Shown here: piece after piece, positions 15,550 to 28,777 of the stretch
How positions within the stretch are numbered: the stretch's first letter is position 1
Layout of the letters: each line of letters begins with the position of its first letter
Assembly (NCBI GenBank): GCA_938040995.1
Contig: CALHZT010000121.1
Span: 1 to 45,013, forward strand
DNA: 45,013 nt
Direction of reading: 5' to 3'
Origin: an uncultured Pirellulaceae bacterium
Lineage (GTDB): Bacteria; Planctomycetota; Planctomycetia; Pirellulales; Pirellulaceae
Translations under genes and position numbers: made by a program
Notes under the pieces: model-generated
Database searches by the model: none
What the model was told of the DNA's origin: nothing
The model's input: the letters and a program-made list of their open reading frames with translations, nothing else

Positions 15550-17184
15550 TCACCAGTTAGCGACTTGATAGTCCTTGAGAAACTTGCCCCAGACGTGCTC
15601 GCCGGTTAGCAAGCCATCAAGAAATGGATCACAGATACGCGCGGCAGCATCAATGATATCGAGCGGCGGATGAAAGTCGTAATCTCGCTGCTTGCGCTCC
15701 GCATGAACCACTGGATCTTCATCCGTGATCCAGCCCGTATCCACACTGTTCATGTGGATTCCGTCGCGGGCATAATCCTGAGCCGACGTTCTGGTCAACA
15801 TGTTCAACGAAGCCTTGGCCATGTTGGTATGCGGATGCTTGTCGGTTTTAAAAGCGCGGTAAAAAATTCCCTCCATCGCCGAGACGTTCACGATATGCTT
15901 GTCCCTCGTCGGCACGGCCAGCAGCAGCGGCTTCAGGCGTGCGTTGAGAATGAACGGAGCCACCGCGTTGACGAGATGCACTTCAAGAAGCTCGACCGTC
16001 CGCACCTCGGCCAACTTTAACCGCCAACTGTTGACTTCTCGCAAATCGACTTGCTGCAAGTCATGATCGTATTCACCCTCGGGGAACAATTCCTGACTGG
16101 CCGCGTGATCATCCTTCACCATCGGAATCTGCGACAACTCGGCAGCTCGTTGGATACCCAACAGAGAATCAGCGACTTCCGCGGGCAAGTCGCCGGAACC
16201 TGCGTTCGTTACTTCCAACGGGTTTTCGCCGCGTTGATTTTCCATTGCTCTCGTAGAGGCACTAGCCGAACGTAATTCTTCATAACCGCCAAGCATCTCG
16301 CGGGCTTCGTGCGACAACGAATCCGTCAGTTGCCGCTCTCCTGCCATCAAGTGGCCATAGAAACCTGGCGGGCGACGCACCGTCTGGCACGCGTTGTTCA
16401 AAATAAAATCCATGCGTGGCAGCCGCTTGTTCAGATGCACACACAATGCTTCTACGCTCGGCGTATGCCGCAGATCCAGCCCGTAGATCATCAGCCGATC
16501 TTGCCAGTCACCGCTATCCTTCTCCGTCAGAAAACGTTTGGCTGCGTCGCGCGGAAATCGAGTCGTCACCACAACGTGACTACCGGCCCGCAGAAGTTTC
16601 AATGCCGCCTGGTAACCGATTTTGACTCGTCCACCCGTAACCAGACAGTAGCGACCACTCGCATCGGCCGTCTGATGCCGCTTCTTCCAGTTCAGCTGTG
16701 CGCAGTCCGGGCAGAGCGAATCGTAGAAGTGATGCAGCCGACGAAAGTCGCGTTTGCAGATGTAGCAGTTTCTTGGATCGGTCAGTTCCGGTCCAAAATC
16801 TTCATCCGTAATCTCCGCGGCCGGCGGCAATTGGGTTTCGAACGGCGCTGAGGGGCACGCCTGATTGATTCCCTTCGCACGAAACTGTGCCCGAATGCCG
16901 GTGCTGGCCAGGAGTTCGTCGTCGCGATCTTTCTCTTTGTCGGTATTGATCTTGCGCTGAGCCCGCAAGGCCTTGGTCATTTTGCGACGAGCCGCCCTGC
17001 CAGGAAAAGCGATTTGTCCCGCCGCCTTGATCAGGCGATGCCGGGTATCGGCATCGACAACCGTCAGCAGACCGCGATCTGCCGCAAAGCGTTCGAGCAT
17101 TTCGGTGACCGCAACAAATTCTTCCGGCGTCAGATCGTCGCCCGAATTGCCCTCACTCGTGTTTTCCGCATCAGCCTGGTTCAT
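15550..17184 (-). CDS. SDR-fold oxidoreductase with N-terminal CxxC...CxxC zinc motif
   Basis: The protein has 544 residues, about twice a classical short-chain dehydrogenase. Residues 1-135 are polar and unassigned. C140-x2-C143 ... C158-x2-C161 (CYICKRDF...LCPDCA) should bind zinc. The Rossmann part starts at about 180 with LVTGGRVKIGYQAALKLL, followed by DLRHTPSVEAL, a FILNNACQT motif (the NNAG position), NAVAPFILNARL and VNVSAMEG with the usual Ser. The active-site Tyr of YxxxK is not found: the Lys falls in TNMAK, where Tyr is replaced by Thr and the Ser-Lys spacing is longer than usual. Dinucleotide binding is likely; classical SDR chemistry is doubtful. It lies upstream of the giant gene on the same strand, separated by 328 bp, so co-transcription is uncertain. 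The substrate cannot be inferred. Confidence 0.8.
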   Translation of the reverse strand: MNQADAENTSEGNSGDDLTPEEFVAVTEMLERFAADRGLLTVVDADTRHRLIKAAGQIAFPGRAARRKMTKALRAQRKINTDKEKDRDDELLASTGIRAQFRAKGINQACPSAPFETQLPPAAEITDEDFGPELTDPRNCYICKRDFRRLHHFYDSLCPDCAQLNWKKRHQTADASGRYCLVTGGRVKIGYQAALKLLRAGSHVVVTTRFPRDAAKRFLTEKDSGDWQDRLMIYGLDLRHTPSVEALCVHLNKRLPRMDFILNNACQTVRRPPGFYGHLMAGERQLTDSLSHEAREMLGGYEELRSASASTRAMENQRGENPLEVTNAGSGDLPAEVADSLLGIQRAAELSQIPMVKDDHAASQELFPEGEYDHDLQQVDLREVNSWRLKLAEVRTVELLEVHLVNAVAPFILNARLKPLLLAVPTRDKHIVNVSAMEGIFYRAFKTDKHPHTNMAKASLNMLTRTSAQDYARDGIHMNSVDTGWITDEDPVVHAERKQRDYDFHPPLDIIDAAARICDPFLDGLLTGEHVWGKFLKDYQVANW

Positions 17185-19004: not shown

Positions 19005-22000
19005 CTATTTCGCAAGTTTCAACTGAAACGTTGAATTGTAGATTTCGTTGCAAGCGGACTCTATGGATCCGTCCATCGAAACGTTCGCGAAGAAAATCCT
19101 GCCGATTCCTGTGTTCGGGTTGAAGTACATGTAAGTTGAGGTCCCAAAATCATTACCCGCGTGGCCTATTAACTCTCCCTCACCCATTTCGATATCCCAG
19201 ACAAGAGCAACCGGCAGCTCAAGTTCAAGACCCGATTGGGGCATCATTTCGACTGCCGATTTTTGTTTGAGGAGTTTGCTTTCACCAACGCGGGCTTTCA
19301 TCATCTCCTGGGCAAACTTCCGCAAGTCACTAACGGAACTGAAAACGCCGCCGTCAGGGTAGGTCGAAAAAGTGTAACGCGGAACGGGGTTGAGTAGCTC
19401 GTTGTAATAGACCACGTGTTGCTTTGGATCAACCAGGTCCAGATGCCAGGTGGTGCTTTCCATTCCGATGGGCTCGAAGATTTCTTCTTGCGTAAGTTCT
19501 CTAAACTCCGTTCCAGTTGCACGCTGAATTGCCAAACCAAGAAGCCCAACGCCTGAATTGGAATACTTGTAAGCAGTCCCGGGTTTGTGCTGAAGGAAGC
19601 TCGAACCATCGTTCCAGACTCCTTCGACACTCAACGCTTTTCCCAGATACTCCTGGAGCCCCAAGGGTTTGTTCGTGTTGTACGTTTCCAGATGTTTGTG
19701 CCAGGCTTTGGGAAAGTCCGCTTCAACGAGCCGTTCGCGGAACAAGTAGGTCTTTTCAAATTTACTTCCGTCACCAATGGAAGATGTATGTGTCGCAAGA
19801 TGTCGAACCGTTATTGGAACCTTGGGGAACTTCGGATGCACCACTCTAAACGGAAGGTGTTTGTTAACCGGGTCATCAAGTGAGAGCTCGCCTCGTTCGA
19901 CGGCTTGCATCATTGCAGTTGCAACAACTGTCTTGGAGATCGAAGCCAGGTATTGAACCGAATCCGACGTGAACGGTCGTTTGTTTTCGATGTCGGCAAA
20001 GCCATAGCCTTTCTCATAGATGACCTTGTCTTTGTCAAAAACCGACACAGCAAAACCCGGCAAAACAGACTGCCGCTCGATCTCCACCAGTTTTGCGTCC
20101 AGTTCCGCCGGCGTCAGTCGCCGAGGCTTCGACTTTGCGGTATCTCCTGATTCACGATCGCCTACCTCACCTTCAAGGAGGTAGGCGCGAACCGCCACGA
20201 TAAAATCACCACCGCTATCGGAGTTTGTAAAAATCACCAGGCCATCGTTACTTTCGTCGTAGATTTCGAATAGACACTGAAAGTCTCCGTTGTTGCCGCT
20301 ATGCTTGATGACCTTTCCATGCTTCGAATCTTCAATTTGAAAACCCAAACCAAACCCGCTCGAAAATCCTTCATCTCCACCGTTACATGCTGGCATCGAG
20401 AGCCTGAACATCTCTTCATAGGTCTCGGGCGAAAGAACTGCCCGATCCATCAGCGCGATCATGAACTTCGAAAACGCTTTTGATTCGGTGAACATGGTGG
20501 AAGCCACGCCGATCATCGGCGAATTGTCGTGTGCCTGCGGCATTTTGTTGGCGTGCCCGAATGACGCGACGGATCGCAACGCTTCGCAATCGGAAAAGAA
20601 AACCGATTCCGTAAATCCCAAGGGGCGACAAGCTTCGTCAAGGACAACCTTTTCCAGCGGTTTGTCCTGAAGATGTTCAACAACGCGCCCCAAATACATC
20701 ATCGCTTCGCCGGAATAGCCGTGTTTCTCGCCCGGCTCAAAAAGCATCTCGACTTTTTCATCGCCATCGTCCCAGAACCAGTTGGGAAGACCGGACGAAT
20801 GATTCAAACAGTGTCTGGCGGTGATCTTTCCGGCACGCGGGTCATGTGACAACTCATCGAACTCAAGATACTCACCAAGCGGTTTATCGAGGTCGATTTC
20901 GCCCTTCTCCGCCAATCGGTTCACCGCAAAAGCAAAAACCGCTTTGGTGATTGAAGCCGCTTCAAACAGAGTGTTCTCGTCAACGAGCTTACCGGTGAAA
21001 CGGTTACTTTGTCCGGCCGCGTGGCTGAAGACAAGTTCTCCGTCACGAATCAGGGCCTTTGAGTAGCCTGGTACATCGTAATAGTCCCGATAGCTTTCAA
21101 CGACTTTGATCAGGTTTGAGTCGCACTGCGGCGAATAGTTAAAGAGCGGACTCGATTCCGTTTGAAAAAAGGGCATGGCCTCGAATTCCAACGTGACGAC
21201 CGTGGCCGTTTCTTCACTCTCTTCATCAGCCGAAACCACAGGTTTGTCGACAATGCGTATTCGCCGACTTTCTTCGTCAGTGACGTCTTCGGCGATCTCA
21301 TTCGCGAGTGAGACTCCATATTCGCCTTCGGGGAGCTTGGCATCAAAGCCGCCCGATTCTCCGACGGCGAGCGTTGCGACCAACGTTGAATCTGAAAACA
21401 GCTGCACTCGTTGGGGAATCGGTTGCTTTTTGCGTGAAAGCTCGCCCTCTCCTTCGTTGCCTGCCTTCAGAACTGCCGCTTGGTCCTTCCACTCAAATCT
21501 CCCGGCAACGTCAAACAACTTGGCATCAGCTGACACTAATACCAAGTCACCAAGGCTGCCGGCGCCGTGGCTTTTACCGTCTCCTGGTCCCCATAAATGA
21601 ATTGAGCCTTCGGAATCATCGTCTCGATCAGCGTCGCATATCAAAAAGTCCAATCCGATCGTTTTGCCAACTTCGACGTTTTGGCCGTTCTTAAACTTCC
21701 ACTCGTAGGTCGTAAGATTTTCTTTGCGTTGAACGCCAAGTTCAACATTGTTCCAGGTAGCACTTTTCGTTGCCGGATCCCAGGCATTCTCCTTACCGAT
21801 GGTCTTGCGCTGATTGCCAAAGTTGAGAAAAATCTGTGCCCCGCTGCCCTTGGGCGAGTGCTGGGTATCGAGATAGAGAATACAAGTATCGAAGAATCGC
21901 CAGGGCTCTTCCTGCTCGCGTTCCAACTGCCGGTCGCCGACATGCGATTCATCATGGACTTCAACGAGAAAGTAGACTTCCCTTTTCTGGCTATTAAATC

Positions 22001-22268
22001 CGGATTTGAACGTCGCAGAAAAATCCTCGGACGAGACGTCCAGGTCTTCTTTCCACTTTCGGTCTATCGGATATGGGTGAGCATCGTCCGGCCAATCGTC
22101 GGCGTTTCCGTCAATCACCAAGCCCTCGACTGGTCTTGAGTAGGCGACGTTTCCGTTATCCGCATGAACAGGTGCTGCCAACACAATAAACAGCACAATT
22201 GCCAGCAACGTCGCAACGAGTCCGCTAGCCAAGTGGTAATCGCATGTCATGGCCATTCGCTTTTCCAT
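19005..22268 (-). CDS. Secreted CBM9-like/tandem beta-lactamase-fold hydrolase
   Basis: The protein has 1,087 residues. A signal peptide (LVATLLAIVLFIVLAAPVHA, cleavage near residue 36) is followed by a CBM9-like domain (VEGLVIDGNADDWPDDAHPYPI, about 42-230). Two serine-hydrolase domains of the beta-lactamase/penicillin-binding class C fold follow. The first has SITK (Ser near 439) and a late HSG motif, but its second motif reads YSG rather than YxN. The second has SISK (Ser near 776), YSN near 900 and HAG near the end. Such proteins are usually peptidases or esterases acting on D-amino-acid peptides or envelope substrates, and antibiotic hydrolysis should not be assumed. It begins 37 bp after the kinase gene on the same strand and so is the likely third gene of the sigma/kinase operon. 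An in-frame ATG four codons downstream (MAMTCDY), preceded by GGAAAAG, is an alternative start. Confidence 0.88.
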   Translation of the reverse strand: MEKRMAMTCDYHLASGLVATLLAIVLFIVLAAPVHADNGNVAYSRPVEGLVIDGNADDWPDDAHPYPIDRKWKEDLDVSSEDFSATFKSGFNSQKREVYFLVEVHDESHVGDRQLEREQEEPWRFFDTCILYLDTQHSPKGSGAQIFLNFGNQRKTIGKENAWDPATKSATWNNVELGVQRKENLTTYEWKFKNGQNVEVGKTIGLDFLICDADRDDDSEGSIHLWGPGDGKSHGAGSLGDLVLVSADAKLFDVAGRFEWKDQAAVLKAGNEGEGELSRKKQPIPQRVQLFSDSTLVATLAVGESGGFDAKLPEGEYGVSLANEIAEDVTDEESRRIRIVDKPVVSADEESEETATVVTLEFEAMPFFQTESSPLFNYSPQCDSNLIKVVESYRDYYDVPGYSKALIRDGELVFSHAAGQSNRFTGKLVDENTLFEAASITKAVFAFAVNRLAEKGEIDLDKPLGEYLEFDELSHDPRAGKITARHCLNHSSGLPNWFWDDGDEKVEMLFEPGEKHGYSGEAMMYLGRVVEHLQDKPLEKVVLDEACRPLGFTESVFFSDCEALRSVASFGHANKMPQAHDNSPMIGVASTMFTESKAFSKFMIALMDRAVLSPETYEEMFRLSMPACNGGDEGFSSGFGLGFQIEDSKHGKVIKHSGNNGDFQCLFEIYDESNDGLVIFTNSDSGGDFIVAVRAYLLEGEVGDRESGDTAKSKPRRLTPAELDAKLVEIERQSVLPGFAVSVFDKDKVIYEKGYGFADIENKRPFTSDSVQYLASISKTVVATAMMQAVERGELSLDDPVNKHLPFRVVHPKFPKVPITVRHLATHTSSIGDGSKFEKTYLFRERLVEADFPKAWHKHLETYNTNKPLGLQEYLGKALSVEGVWNDGSSFLQHKPGTAYKYSNSGVGLLGLAIQRATGTEFRELTQEEIFEPIGMESTTWHLDLVDPKQHVVYYNELLNPVPRYTFSTYPDGGVFSSVSDLRKFAQEMMKARVGESKLLKQKSAVEMMPQSGLELELPVALVWDIEMGEGELIGHAGNDFGTSTYMYFNPNTGIGRIFFANVSMDGSIESACNEIYNSTFQLKLAK

Positions 22269-22305
22269 TCATGTAAAGGTCCCGAAACCACCAACGCCTC
22301 GAAAG

Positions 22306-24747
22306 TCAGAAGAATTCTGGATCATTCTTCAAGCCGTCGGTCTTCGTATCAACCTCGTTGAGATGGATAGAGCCATGCTTGCTTCGCAACAGAAACGATG
22401 GGCCGCCGCCATTTAGCTGAATGTCAGCCGCATTCATTTTGCCTTCAGGTACGAGCGAACCTCGAACTTTGCCTTTCTCGGACCTCGCATCGATATCAAC
22501 AGACGTGCCAGATTCGACACCGATTCGAATCGCGCCTTCGTTTGTCGCAATGCTGGAGTCGGAACTAATTTGTCCGATTCGTTCGACGGAGATCTTCCCT
22601 TCGCCGGTGGAAGCCTGAATATTTCCAAGGACTTCCGAAACATGTATGTCGCCGTCGTCTGCGATTGTTAGTCGAGCACCACCATTGGCTTTCCCGATTT
22701 GGATCTTTCCGTCATCGAGACTCACGACCGCGAGGCCATTTGACTTGTTGATTTCGATCTTGGCGTCCTCGGTGGTGATCTTTGCGGTTCCACCAATTTC
22801 TCCAAGTTTCAGATCGCCGTCTTCGCCGTTGATAACAACATTTCCAGTCACATCTCCAGCAAGAAGTGTGCCGTCTTCCAGGCTGACATTGAGATCTCCG
22901 TCGATATCCCCCAGAGTGATGTCGCCATCTTCAACGACTGTCTTGATATTGCCCTCAACAACTGGCAATGCAAGATTGCCGTCCCGGTTTAAGATCTCGA
23001 CGTTGAAGTGCCGGGGAATTTTGATCCGAAGACTAACGTTGGACTGATCGTTGCTTGCAAGAATACGACTGATCGAAATCTGATTATTCTTCGTTACAAA
23101 CTGGTTGATCGCTCGTGCAGAGAACTGGCTCAGATCGCACTCGACTGTTCCCCATTCCGAAACCAACAATGCATCGCGACGTTTGACGAGGTCGCTGCCT
23201 TCCAGATCGCAGCTAAGCTGATGTCTCGACATCAAGGCCGCTGCCTCCTTTCGGTTTCGAGCCGCGATTGAAACTACAGCCTTGATGTCAACTTGAGGTT
23301 TGTCGTGAGTCTCAACGGCGATGTTTGCAAGGTCGGACCGCACTACGAGCTTGCCACCGTCCCGGACAGGAATCGAATCTGTCTCGTCAAATTCAAAGCT
23401 CTCCAGGGGCGCCCCTTCGTCGAGTATCAAACTTGCGATCGCCTTCATCAATTCTTCTGGCTGTTTTTCCTGCGCTTTCTGATTGGCACCGGCAACGCCC
23501 TCGGGCCCCTGCATCCCCTCGAAATACGGCTTGGCGACCAACCACGCAGCAATAACAGCTGGCAAGAGCGCAACAGCACACCACACAACCAGCGTTGAGC
23601 GCTTCGTTTTTGTGGCAGGGTGATGCCATGACCTGGAGGGACAAGATACGGTGTTCGGTGCTTGCATATGAGCCAGTTCTGCCGAAAGATGCTGCTTCAC
23701 TTCAGTTGCAGTCTGAAACCGTTCTTCCTTTCTCTTGCTCATCAATACTTCGATAAAGGCGACGAGCCAAGCGGGAATCTTCGGATTGGATTCGAGTATG
23801 GAACGAGGTTGTTCATCGCACACTCGTTTGATGACTCCAAAGGCGTTTTCGGCTCGAAACGGAGGGTGACCGGTGCACGCTGCGTACAGAGTGCTACCAA
23901 GGCTAAATAGATCAGAACGACCATCCAGTGTCTCGCCTTTCGCCTGTTCGGGAGACATATACTGTGGCGTGCCCGTAATCAGACCGCTGCGAGTCATCGA
24001 GGCTTCATTGGCAACCTGCGCCAAGCCGAAGTCCGAAACCATCGCTCGATCCGACCCCGATTCAAGCATGACGTTGGCTGGTTTTACATCGCGATGCACG
24101 ATGCCCTGTGCGTGTGCCGCCTCCAGGCCTTCGGCAATGTGCAACCCAAATCGAACGACCGCTTCCGACGAAAGCGGCCCATCACGTGCAATCTTCTGTT
24201 GCAGTGACCCGCCTGGCATGTACTGCATGACAATGAAGGGTTGGCCAAGGTGTTCACTAATTGCATACACCGGTACGACATGAGGATTGACCACCGCCGC
24301 AATAGCTCGACCTTCACGGTCGAACCGTTTGCGAGCCGCGGCTGAGTCACAAAGATTGGGGTGCAAGACCTTGATTGCGACAAAACGATTCAGAGTTCGC
24401 TCGAATGCCCTGGCAACAATTCCAGTACTCCCTGAACCGATGACCGCGGAAACCTCGTATCGCGCCAGCCTGCCCAGCATCTCGGGATCGTCAGTAGGCC
24501 CGAGTAAGTCGAGAAATTTTCTTGTGGAGGATTCACCTGGAGTTTCTACTTCGCCAAAGTCAACAAGATGGTGATGAATCGTCGACCACTCATTGCCGTT
24601 TTGGACCAGTCTTTCCATTCGCTCTTGGCAATCCCTGCACTGATCGATATGCGCAATCAACTGCGACTCCTGCTCCGAATCCAGCTGTTCTTCGACGAGC
24701 AGTTCGAGCTGCTGCCTGGCAATGTGTTTTGTATCGTTAAAGTTCAC
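22306..24747 (-). CDS. Anti-sigma zinc motif/Ser-Thr kinase/transmembrane/DUF4097 protein
   Basis: I chose the GTG at 24747 (MNFNDTKHIARQQ, 813 residues). It has GAGGA upstream and overlaps the sigma gene stop by 11 nt. The ORF-track start at 24783 is a TTG inside the sigma gene. Domains in order: an HxxxCxxC anti-sigma zinc signature (AHIDQCRDC, His33, Cys37, Cys40); a complete Hanks-type kinase with GSGSTG loop, Lys126 in VAIK, HRDVKPAN with Asp220, DFG with Asp239 and TPQYMSPEQ; one transmembrane segment (VVWCAVALLPAVIAAWLVA, near 390); and an extracytoplasmic DUF4097-type repeat region of about 300 residues (GNIKTVVEDGDITLGDIDGDL). In planctomycetes ECF sigma factors are often paired with such kinases. 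I infer that this protein binds and controls the adjacent sigma factor and senses the envelope through the DUF4097 part. Confidence 0.9.
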   Translation of the reverse strand: MNFNDTKHIARQQLELLVEEQLDSEQESQLIAHIDQCRDCQERMERLVQNGNEWSTIHHHLVDFGEVETPGESSTRKFLDLLGPTDDPEMLGRLARYEVSAVIGSGSTGIVARAFERTLNRFVAIKVLHPNLCDSAAARKRFDREGRAIAAVVNPHVVPVYAISEHLGQPFIVMQYMPGGSLQQKIARDGPLSSEAVVRFGLHIAEGLEAAHAQGIVHRDVKPANVMLESGSDRAMVSDFGLAQVANEASMTRSGLITGTPQYMSPEQAKGETLDGRSDLFSLGSTLYAACTGHPPFRAENAFGVIKRVCDEQPRSILESNPKIPAWLVAFIEVLMSKRKEERFQTATEVKQHLSAELAHMQAPNTVSCPSRSWHHPATKTKRSTLVVWCAVALLPAVIAAWLVAKPYFEGMQGPEGVAGANQKAQEKQPEELMKAIASLILDEGAPLESFEFDETDSIPVRDGGKLVVRSDLANIAVETHDKPQVDIKAVVSIAARNRKEAAALMSRHQLSCDLEGSDLVKRRDALLVSEWGTVECDLSQFSARAINQFVTKNNQISISRILASNDQSNVSLRIKIPRHFNVEILNRDGNLALPVVEGNIKTVVEDGDITLGDIDGDLNVSLEDGTLLAGDVTGNVVINGEDGDLKLGEIGGTAKITTEDAKIEINKSNGLAVVSLDDGKIQIGKANGGARLTIADDGDIHVSEVLGNIQASTGEGKISVERIGQISSDSSIATNEGAIRIGVESGTSVDIDARSEKGKVRGSLVPEGKMNAADIQLNGGGPSFLLRSKHGSIHLNEVDTKTDGLKNDPEFF

Positions 24748-25387
24748 GATCGTGATCCTCGTTTTGAATGTGTTCCCGATCAATGGAGACGCCCGAAGGC
24801 AGATTTTCGTAAAGCGCGACGACCTTGCGGATTCTTGAAATCATCCGGCACTTGGCGGTGTAAACCGAACCAACAGACATTCCAAGCTCTTCAGCGACTT
24901 CGCCAGCCGCCCGGCCATTGATGGCTGTTTCCCAAAAGCAACGCCAGCTGTCTTCACCGACGGAAGGTTTGATTCTTGCCGCGGCCGACAAAATAAGGCT
25001 GCGGCGATACTCCAGTTCAATTGCCTGTGAGACATCGGTATTACCCGGCGTAGCTTCGACGAGTCGCTGGATTGAAGTCCCACCACTTGCGTTAATCTGT
25101 TTTGCACGCTCACAGAATTTGTCGACTGAGATGTTACGAGCGATTCGAAATAGCCAATTCCTGAACCCGCCTTTTTCAGGATCGTATTTCCCATTGACCA
25201 GGTTCTTGTCGAGTGCTGCCAACACTTCCTGACAGACATCAGCAGAATCTTCGTTCGAAAGCCCCCTGGAAATGCAAAACCTCAAAAGCGCTTGCTCGTA
25301 GACTTCAACGAAATCCAGCCACGCGTTCTCGCTACGGTCAGCGAGCCTGCTAAGCATCCGTTGGTCGGTTTTTGGCAAATCCTTCAT
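24737..25387 (-). CDS. ECF-type RNA polymerase sigma factor
   Basis: The protein has 216 residues. Region 2 lies at about 20-90 (LLRFCISRGLSNEDSADVCQEVL, then GGFRNWLFRIARNISVDKF, the core-binding and -10 contact helices). Region 4 lies at about 155-205 (GRAAGEVAEELGMSVGSVYTAKCRMISRIR, a helix-turn-helix for the -35 element). There is no region 1 or 3, as expected for group 4 sigma factors. The ATG has GGAG 5 nt upstream. It is the first gene of an operon with the kinase (11-nt overlap) and the hydrolase. Autoregulation is likely by analogy but no promoter could be assigned with confidence. The target genes are unknown. Confidence 0.93.
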   Translation of the reverse strand: MKDLPKTDQRMLSRLADRSENAWLDFVEVYEQALLRFCISRGLSNEDSADVCQEVLAALDKNLVNGKYDPEKGGFRNWLFRIARNISVDKFCERAKQINASGGTSIQRLVEATPGNTDVSQAIELEYRRSLILSAAARIKPSVGEDSWRCFWETAINGRAAGEVAEELGMSVGSVYTAKCRMISRIRKVVALYENLPSGVSIDREHIQNEDHDREL

Positions 25388-27907: not shown

Positions 27908-28777
27908 ATGAACTCTGCGAATCGTCATTTGGACTTACACGTTGAAGCTCTTGAAGACCGCCAATTATTGGCAGGAAACGTCACGGCGACTCTTGCTGCT
28001 GGTGGAGATTTGACGATTCGCGGCGACAACGCCAGCAATTCGGTCATCCTCGAGGTATTTGAGGATCGCACTTTCGAACTGCGTGGACTCAGCTCAACGA
28101 CCATTGACGCAGAAGACTTTGCTGGAAGAACCCTGAACGGGAACGTCAGAGTCCAGTTGCGAGGCGGAGATGATGTCTTCGAACTTTCCGGAAACAGTAC
28201 GATTGATGTCCTCGAAAATGTAAGGATCTCTGATAGCGATGGTGACGATACCTTCAAGTTTTTCAGAGTCGAGATGGGCGGCCAATTGACCATTCGTGCC
28301 GGAAAGGGCGACGACAGATTGACTTTCTTCGATGCTACGGCAGAAAAAATGAATTTCAATCTTGGCCAGGGTAATGACACCCAGACAATGGTACTCCTCA
28401 ATTCATCCAGACGCGTGGCTGATCAAGCCATCATCAAAACAGGATCAGGCAACGACGATATCACTTTGCGTGGGAACTATGAATCGGCGAGGGTTAGCCT
28501 CGGATCAGGAGACGACGTTTTTCGCGGAACCTTCTTTACGGCTGATACGGCCAACATAAACTTCAGCGGTGGCAATGATCTTCTGGTAGACGGCGGGTTT
28601 TCAGGAGCTTTTTCATTCGTGGCGAAGTTTGGTTCAGGAGACGATACTGCCGACTTGACCAGTTTCTTTCGGGATATTGAGTTAAACGGTGGAGGCGGAA
28701 CGGACACGGTCTTTGCTGCACCGCTGGATGCGCGACTGAGTTTTGAAATTACTTCATTCGAAGAAAACAATCTCTAG
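27908..28777 (+). CDS. Secreted RTX-like calcium-repeat protein with LEPR-like N-terminus
   Basis: The protein has 289 residues. The N-terminus reads MNSANRHLDLHVEALEDRQLLAGNV: the segment ALEDRQLLAG is the planctomycete LEPR-like motif also seen in the giant DUF11 protein. The body repeats GGDDVFEL, GKGDDRLTF, GQGNDTQT, GSGNDDITL, GSGDDVF and GSGDDTADL at 20-40 residue spacing, resembling hemolysin-type calcium-binding (RTX) nonapeptides, predicted to fold as a calcium-loaded beta-roll. There is no enzymatic domain and no C-terminal RTX secretion domain that I recognise. GGGAG lies 7 nt upstream of the ATG. An extracellular or cell-surface structural role is inferred. Confidence 0.83.
   Translation: MNSANRHLDLHVEALEDRQLLAGNVTATLAAGGDLTIRGDNASNSVILEVFEDRTFELRGLSSTTIDAEDFAGRTLNGNVRVQLRGGDDVFELSGNSTIDVLENVRISDSDGDDTFKFFRVEMGGQLTIRAGKGDDRLTFFDATAEKMNFNLGQGNDTQTMVLLNSSRRVADQAIIKTGSGNDDITLRGNYESARVSLGSGDDVFRGTFFTADTANINFSGGNDLLVDGGFSGAFSFVAKFGSGDDTADLTSFFRDIELNGGGGTDTVFAAPLDARLSFEITSFEENNL

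Follow-up and report, generated by a model that had tools for sequence, protein, structure and literature searches.

Extracytoplasmic function (ECF) sigma factors encoded beside Ser/Thr kinases are already known in planctomycetes (PMC8103513, PMC8999054), and the position of the planctomycete groups ECF59, ECF61, ECF62 and ECF217 beside such kinases goes back to Jogler et al. (2012), as that work is cited in PMC8103513. The DUF4097, DUF2154 and DUF2807 domains have been unified as Toastrack, which is predicted to be intracellular (PMC11237479). Here, an operon that appears to bring these elements together was analyzed in a 45,013-nt stretch of DNA (hereafter the window; contig CALHZT010000121.1, positions 1 to 45,013, assembly GCA_938040995.1) from an uncultured Pirellulaceae bacterium with a draft genome of 5.66 Mb in 425 contigs. 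By open reading frame reading, three consecutive genes on the minus strand encode an ECF sigma factor, a membrane Ser/Thr kinase and a secreted hydrolase (Table 1). An initial annotation of the sequence had described an 11-nt overlap of the kinase and sigma genes, which is borne out with a GTG start at 24747, and a secreted double beta-lactamase-fold hydrolase 37 bp after the kinase, which is confirmed by a signal peptide and a Beta-lactamase score of 360 bits.

The operon probably works as a self-contained transmembrane switch, in which the kinase holds the sigma factor, a cue on the Toastrack domain frees it and the hydrolase is induced. The kinase would bind the sigma factor through an N-terminal zinc anti-sigma domain and tether it to the membrane in an inactive state. 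A cue beyond the cytoplasmic membrane, possibly a ligand, would be read by the Toastrack domain and alter the state of the kinase. The sigma factor would be freed by phosphorylation, for which the likeliest site is either the anti-sigma domain or the region of the sigma linker near Thr104. The free sigma factor would then transcribe its own operon, leading to production of the secreted CBM9–beta-lactamase-fold hydrolase, which may act on an envelope or surface substrate and probably removes the cue, as a feedback. Within this scheme, sequence lends support to the tether, the topology and the output, while the cue, the direction of the kinase effect and the phosphosites are inferred.

The HxxxCxxC anti-sigma signature that had been noticed before an intact kinase domain holds up in all 34 aligned kinases and in profile matches to PDB anti-sigma factors. 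H33, C37 and C40 are invariant across these 34 N-termini, the mean identity of which is 29%. The zf-HC2 model gives a sub-threshold 16.3 bits with the full-length kinase and 22.5 bits (cut-off 22.2) with the first 60 amino acids alone. A profile of the 60-residue N-termini matches the anti-sigma factors DdvA (6e-6), RslA (1e-4), RsiW (8e-4) and ChrR (2e-3) in the PDB, and the sole match below E = 0.01 that is not an anti-sigma factor is a CHAT-domain protein. The AlphaFold2 (AF2) model is a three-helix bundle (helices 11–18, 24–36 and 38–50) followed by a fourth helix, with a core confidence score (pLDDT) of about 90, and the Hx3Cx2C residues are placed across helices 2 and 3, as in class I domains. 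When the model was compared with 350,542 chains by Foldseek, the two best matches were ChrR in its complex with SigE, at E-values above 1, which are non-significant because the domain is so short. By profile and fold, we assign the N-terminus of the kinase to the class I zinc anti-sigma domains, on the combined evidence of the motif, zf-HC2, the PDB profile and the AF2 fold. Separately, the matching CHAT-domain protein has a solved structure (PDB 8rot, 1e-4), which suggests from sequence that anti-sigma-like domains may be carried by CHAT proteins as well.

The sigma–kinase pair is widely conserved. Sigma homologues were collected as best matches from about 300 genomes of Pirellulales, and their neighborhoods were read. 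All 33 fully compared homologues directly precede a kinase with HxxxCxxC near residue 30, before the kinase domain; the motif is also present in L072, in which the kinase reads in two pieces, and in the truncated L062 and L065. Sigma and kinase distances co-vary (r = 0.74, 0/2000 permutations, calculated without species-tree control). At 33 of 33, the sigma–kinase order is more than chance. The initial annotation had made its proposal depend on conservation of the gene order, and besides the pair, universal in the sample, the set of sigma factor, kinase and Toastrack recurs in genome G179 (locus L039, from a different family of Pirellulales, with the same gene order as the window) and in G672, from another class. 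Other Pirellulales kinases in the sample have WD40 or short tails, and the next genes are often secreted-looking. The Pfam-only search of the order overlooked G179, so that Pfam counts are lower bounds. In the kinase tree, the window, G672, L039 and L040 (the CBM9-kinase of G179) form one clade (100/96); the same four group together in the sigma tree (93/81; with L042, 96/80), where the window sigma factor sits on a long branch and its exact place is unsure. In both trees, the DUF2807 kinases branch apart as a clade of their own (100/99).

Several related pairs deserve a separate description. A peptide-pattern scan of genome contigs found no close homologue of the sigma factor. The window's own genome has two further pairs of an ECF sigma factor and an anti-sigma kinase, L055 and L056 (G000:C139 and C83), with no recognizable Toastrack. 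In many short-tailed pairs (L041–L050, L052, L056, L059–L061, L064, L068 and L071), the same-strand gene after the kinase has a signal-peptide-like start. No convincing Pfam match was found in those of its products that were scanned, and it may be a general third component. In the kinase ectodomain of L053:6375-8873 (G247), a domain without a Pfam assignment appears to be internally duplicated. In L064 (G250:C8), two pairs of ECF sigma factor and anti-sigma kinase lie in tandem, and the second kinase has a large unrecognized ectodomain.

The sigma factor has the sigma2 and sigma4 domains only, as defines the ECF type: Sigma70_r2 is above its cut-off, and the r4_2 match is weak (15.2 bits). In an alignment of 34 sigma factors, region 2.2 reads DAxD/E in most relatives. 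Membership in ECF43, the group of EcfP and EcfK, is ruled out, since the region reads DSAD in the window and not the uncharged STTA-like sequence. An alternative mechanism, after the manner of EcfP/PknT and EcfK/PknS, is that the sigma factor has no activity of its own until the kinase adds charge to region 2.2 or the linker, with the zinc domain only for docking. The kinase is indeed intact (VAIK, HRDVKPAN and DFG by eye, thus of the Hanks type), and ECF59, ECF61, ECF62 and ECF217 of planctomycetes are reviewed as phosphorylation-regulated without an anti-sigma factor (PMC8999054). Moreover, linker residue Thr104 is Thr or Ser in 30 of the 34 and has a position comparable to that of Thr106 in EcfK (PMC13147305). 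However, the kinase begins with a genuine zinc anti-sigma domain that is invariant family-wide, Ser48 of DSAD is not conserved among relatives, and activation of the ECF43 type is less likely because DSAD retains both flanking Asp residues. On this balance we consider activation by phosphorylation alone unlikely.

Sensing by the switch would depend on what lies beyond the single transmembrane helix of the kinase, about 400 residues in all. The initial annotation had assigned a DUF4097 fold to this part. Pfam assigns no family to these residues, and it gives no DUF4097 match in the window kinase or anywhere in its genome; the assignment stands on homology and fold. The kinase at L039 is 38% identical overall and has DUF4097 (E = 8e-9) at the corresponding place. 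The AF2 model of the ectodomain is confident over the repeat, about residues 160–360 of the modelled stretch, and Foldseek matches it to the Toastrack/adhesin structures 3lyc, 3jx8, 4opw and 3ljy (best E = 1.4e-5; 1e-5 to 1e-4 for the first three), at low TM-scores of 0.2–0.37. For the window kinase, a Toastrack outside the cytoplasmic membrane is the better reading, because CBM9 modules, which also occur in signal-peptide proteins, fill its place in sister kinases and because in G672 an esterase-like domain comes after the Toastrack. A different ECF–kinase pair, L145:3082-5609 (G354:C334), has a kinase with DUF4097 (1.9e-9) and without HxxxCxxC; its transmembrane helices follow the Toastrack, so that the domain should be cytoplasmic there.

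The candidate output enzyme has an N-terminal CBM9_1 module, absent from the initial annotation, and a small beta "tail" domain that is also found in kinase L040 and in other hydrolases. The layout of CBM9, tail and hydrolase belongs to a wider family in Bacteroidota, Pyrinomonadaceae, Myxococcales and planctomycetes. The motifs of the CBM9-linked hydrolase domains are SxxK, YSG and H(G/S)G in 22/22 compared, and the Asn of YxN is missing in all. Set against the SxxK/YxN/HxG-KTG triads, domain 1 of the window protein has YSG, with the Asn gone, and domain 2 has SISK/YSN/HAG and resembles enzymes related to penicillin-binding proteins. All scores with the NCBIfam class C beta-lactamase models are far under cut-off. 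The effector had been described as having a "penicillin-recognising" fold; with the Asn missing in 22/22, this term should be read as one for the fold and not for an activity.

The linkage of such hydrolases to the switch was found in a second, distant setting. In the Isosphaeraceae, which belong to another order, five of six CBM9–beta-lactamase genes lie beside those of an ECF sigma factor and of an anti-sigma kinase whose ectodomain is a DUF2807 Toastrack (E = 3e-46 in the Singulisphaera kinase). Singulisphaera acidiphila (G773) and G696 have a divergent arrangement, and G686, G737 and G728 a collinear one in the order hydrolase–sigma–kinase. The hydrolase occurs without the pair in G730, and the pair without the hydrolase in G752. 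That the linkage appears in two different branches of the ECF–kinase family speaks for a functional tie and against simple inheritance. A promoter-like motif, TTCAAR-N15-TGTG, lies upstream of each sigma-kinase-linked unit in the Isosphaeraceae. The divergent loci have two sites each, one before the sigma gene and one before the hydrolase gene, and the collinear loci have one, before the hydrolase gene that heads the operon. In G752 the site before the sigma gene reads TGTGTC, and no site was found before the hydrolase gene of G730. For the stricter form of the motif, 0.04 matches were expected in these loci from shuffles. In five genomes (about 45 Mb), TTCAAR-N15-TGTGDA has 8 matches (G773, 2; G696, 3; G686, 1; G737, 1; G728, 1), 7 of them at the heads of these loci; the G752 sigma site falls outside the TGTGDA form, and the three matches in that genome are all elsewhere. 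The motif was first read off the loci and then scanned genome-wide, so the scan tests its specificity and not its discovery. The recurrence of the parts in distant planctomycetes, together with the matching promoter-like motif, makes this look like a real and little-described envelope signalling circuit.

The hydrolase may also stand upstream of the switch, as sensor or signal generator, binding or cutting a ligand whose product, or the acylated form of the enzyme, would be read by the Toastrack. Several arrangements fit such a role, and the first two of them, as domain fusions, also tie the hydrolase to the switch proposed here. In G179, a kinase (C160) of the same clade as the window kinase has two CBM9-tail modules of the hydrolase type outside the membrane; modules that are part of the secreted hydrolase thus make up the ectodomain in this sister kinase. 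In G672, the Toastrack kinase extends further as an esterase-like domain, for which 3doh (1e-14) is the closest esterase in the PDB. In addition, PbpP adjoins sigP-rsiP and is required for activation of sigma-P (PMC8092216). Yet the hydrolase gene shares its promoter motif with the sigma gene, which is what one would expect if it were a target, and no hydrolase lies close to many of the related kinases. An upstream role, which is compatible with the switch proposed here and does not exclude it, has in our judgment a small chance of being right.

Membrane anti-sigma proteins with a single transmembrane helix are classic substrates of site-1/site-2 proteolysis, and by hydropathy the window kinase has this layout. 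Release of the sigma factor by regulated proteolysis, as in the RseA/RsiP type, with the kinase domain only for tuning, nevertheless seems quite improbable, as the domain scan of the neighboring genes recognized no protease gene beside the operon and the kinase motifs are kept across the family. That the hydrolase is a chance neighbor, as its absence beside the other Pirellulales ECF–kinase pairs compared might suggest, is largely refuted already and very improbable, given the 37-bp spacing, the independent Isosphaeraceae linkage with its shared promoter motif and two domain fusions.

Several results weigh against the proposed switch. Just two of the acidic residues of DAED are retained in region 2.2 of the window sigma factor, so phosphorylation might be needed for RNA polymerase binding. 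The Isosphaeraceae motif was found only within that clade, the window sigma factor belongs to another, and no such site was found before the window sigma gene (the window contains 53 matches with up to two mismatches, where 74 would be expected). Most Pirellulales ECF–kinase pairs lack such a hydrolase neighbor, and the Toastrack kinase of G179 precedes a different secreted protein. Finally, the homology of the ectodomain to Toastrack is remote. Other candidates were also set aside. A search for plain ECF promoters with a "GGAAC" –35 element found none upstream, and a GTAAG-like motif seen by eye in the window's own clade has inconsistent spacing and is not claimed. The idea that the hydrolase gene regularly accompanies the pair in Pirellulales as a third gene was rejected, as no beta-lactamase match lies beside the other pairs; in G179, a CBM9-tail-beta-lactamase gene is present elsewhere in the genome, not linked to the kinase.

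Table 1. Positions in the window of the operon and of the features of its three products.
Feature	Position	Strand	Basis
ECF sigma factor, 216 aa	24737..25387	-	Sigma70_r2 33.9 bits; TIGR02937 sigma70-ECF 57.7 bits
Region 2.2 motif DSAD (residues 47-50) replacing DAED, both Asp kept	25238..25249	-	Alignment of 34 sigma factors
Thr104, sigma2-sigma4 linker, candidate phospho-acceptor	25076..25078	-	Thr/Ser in 30/34 homologues
Sigma/kinase gene overlap, 11 nt	24737..24747	-	Sequence
Ser/Thr kinase of the membrane, 813 aa, start codon GTG; N-terminal anti-sigma domain, Toastrack ectodomain	22306..24747	-	
Zinc anti-sigma (zf-HC2/class I) domain, kinase residues 1-60	24568..24747	-	zf-HC2, PDB profile matches, AF2
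HxxxCxxC: H33, C37, C40 (residues 33-40)	24628..24651	-	Invariant in 34 aligned kinases
Protein kinase domain, full catalytic motifs	23689..24459	-	Pkinase 156 bits
Single transmembrane helix, residues 386-404	23536..23592	-	Hydropathy
Extracytoplasmic Toastrack (DUF4097-like) beta-helix, predicted	22309..23535	-	L039 homology; AF2 and Foldseek 3lyc/3jx8/4opw
Kinase-hydrolase gap, 37 bp	22269..22305	.	Sequence
Secreted CBM9 and double beta-lactamase-fold hydrolase, 1087 aa	19005..22268	-	
Signal peptide, about residues 1-36 (VHA/DN)	22161..22268	-	Hydropathy 2.76 at residues 13-31; cleavage site by eye
CBM9_1, residues 52-245; the small beta "tail" after it ends near residue 345	21534..22115	-	33.9 bits
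Beta-lactamase-fold domain 1: SITK / YSG / HSG	20124..21158	-	
Beta-lactamase-fold domain 2: SISK / YSN / HAG	19080..20081	-	

By domain scan, the operon is flanked by a divergent SSF symporter gene and, downstream, a Na+/H+ exchanger gene; no PSP/Lia partner (PspA, PspC, LiaI/F) was found among the directly flanking genes. Elsewhere in the window, positions 27908-28777 (+) encode a secreted-type repeat protein beginning with a VEALEDRQLLAG motif, a start which we take to be typical of planctomycete surface proteins. Positions 15550-17184 (-) encode a 544-aa protein with a long N-terminal region holding a CxxC..CxxC cluster, followed by an SDR-like domain (by eye).

ECF–kinase pairing is known; its coupling to a hydrolase appears to be new. 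A literature search among openly readable papers found neither DUF4097 or DUF2807 as the ectodomain of a Ser/Thr kinase, in agreement with the earlier remark that this combination is little described, nor an account of a kinase that has its own anti-sigma domain, a Toastrack ectodomain and a dedicated hydrolase. The chances are about even that these loci represent a distinct signalling class of Planctomycetota, in which a single polypeptide combines anti-sigma factor and receptor kinase, the sensor is an extracytoplasmic Toastrack (DUF4097/DUF2807) and the near-private regulon consists of one secreted serine hydrolase. Such systems would have arisen more than once, as operon, divergent pair or fusion. 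If so, planctomycete ECF sigma factors regarded as controlled by phosphorylation only would have built-in anti-sigma factors, correcting the present view, and Toastrack, so far predicted to be intracellular, could sense outside the membrane. Planctomycetes have many ECF–kinase pairs of which the signal, target and mechanism are undescribed. The window locus and its relatives offer a testable case, with a defined sensor domain, an anti-sigma contact, a near locus-private promoter motif and one candidate output enzyme, and this case is also present in the sequenced Singulisphaera acidiphila DSM 18658.

Compared by description, ECF59, ECF61, ECF62 and ECF217 resemble the window locus in having an ECF gene followed by that of a membrane Ser/Thr kinase in planctomycetes. 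They are reviewed as lacking an anti-sigma factor, whereas the window kinase itself bears a zinc anti-sigma domain, and the window locus adds the Toastrack ectodomain and a dedicated hydrolase. The ECF43 pairs EcfP/PknT and EcfK/PknS likewise place a sigma factor under an adjacent receptor-like Ser/Thr kinase, but differ in region 2.2 (STTA vs. DSAD), in the HxxxCxxC of the window kinase and in the ectodomain. In the sigma-P/RsiP/PbpP system of Bacillus thuringiensis, an ECF sigma factor, an anti-sigma factor and a penicillin-binding-fold protein are co-encoded as in the window; there, beta-lactamases are induced, PbpP is a sensor and no kinase takes part (PMC8092216). The CBM9_1 plus Beta-lactamase proteins of Bacteroidota and others share the CBM9-tail-hydrolase layout and SxxK/YSG/H(G/S)G with the window hydrolase, which has an extra second domain (SISK/YSN/HAG). 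The Toastrack partners of PSP, Lia and VraTSR belong to the same beta-helix superfamily and to envelope-stress signalling; in those histidine kinase systems the domain is predicted to be intracellular (PMC11237479), whereas in the window it comes after the transmembrane helix in a Ser/Thr kinase and is expected to lie outside. The class I zinc anti-sigma factors ChrR, RslA, RsiW and DdvA agree with the window kinase in HxxxCxxC over helices 2–3, in profile and in fold; in them the domain is joined to a plain transmembrane anchor or sensor, and in the window a full kinase domain comes after it.

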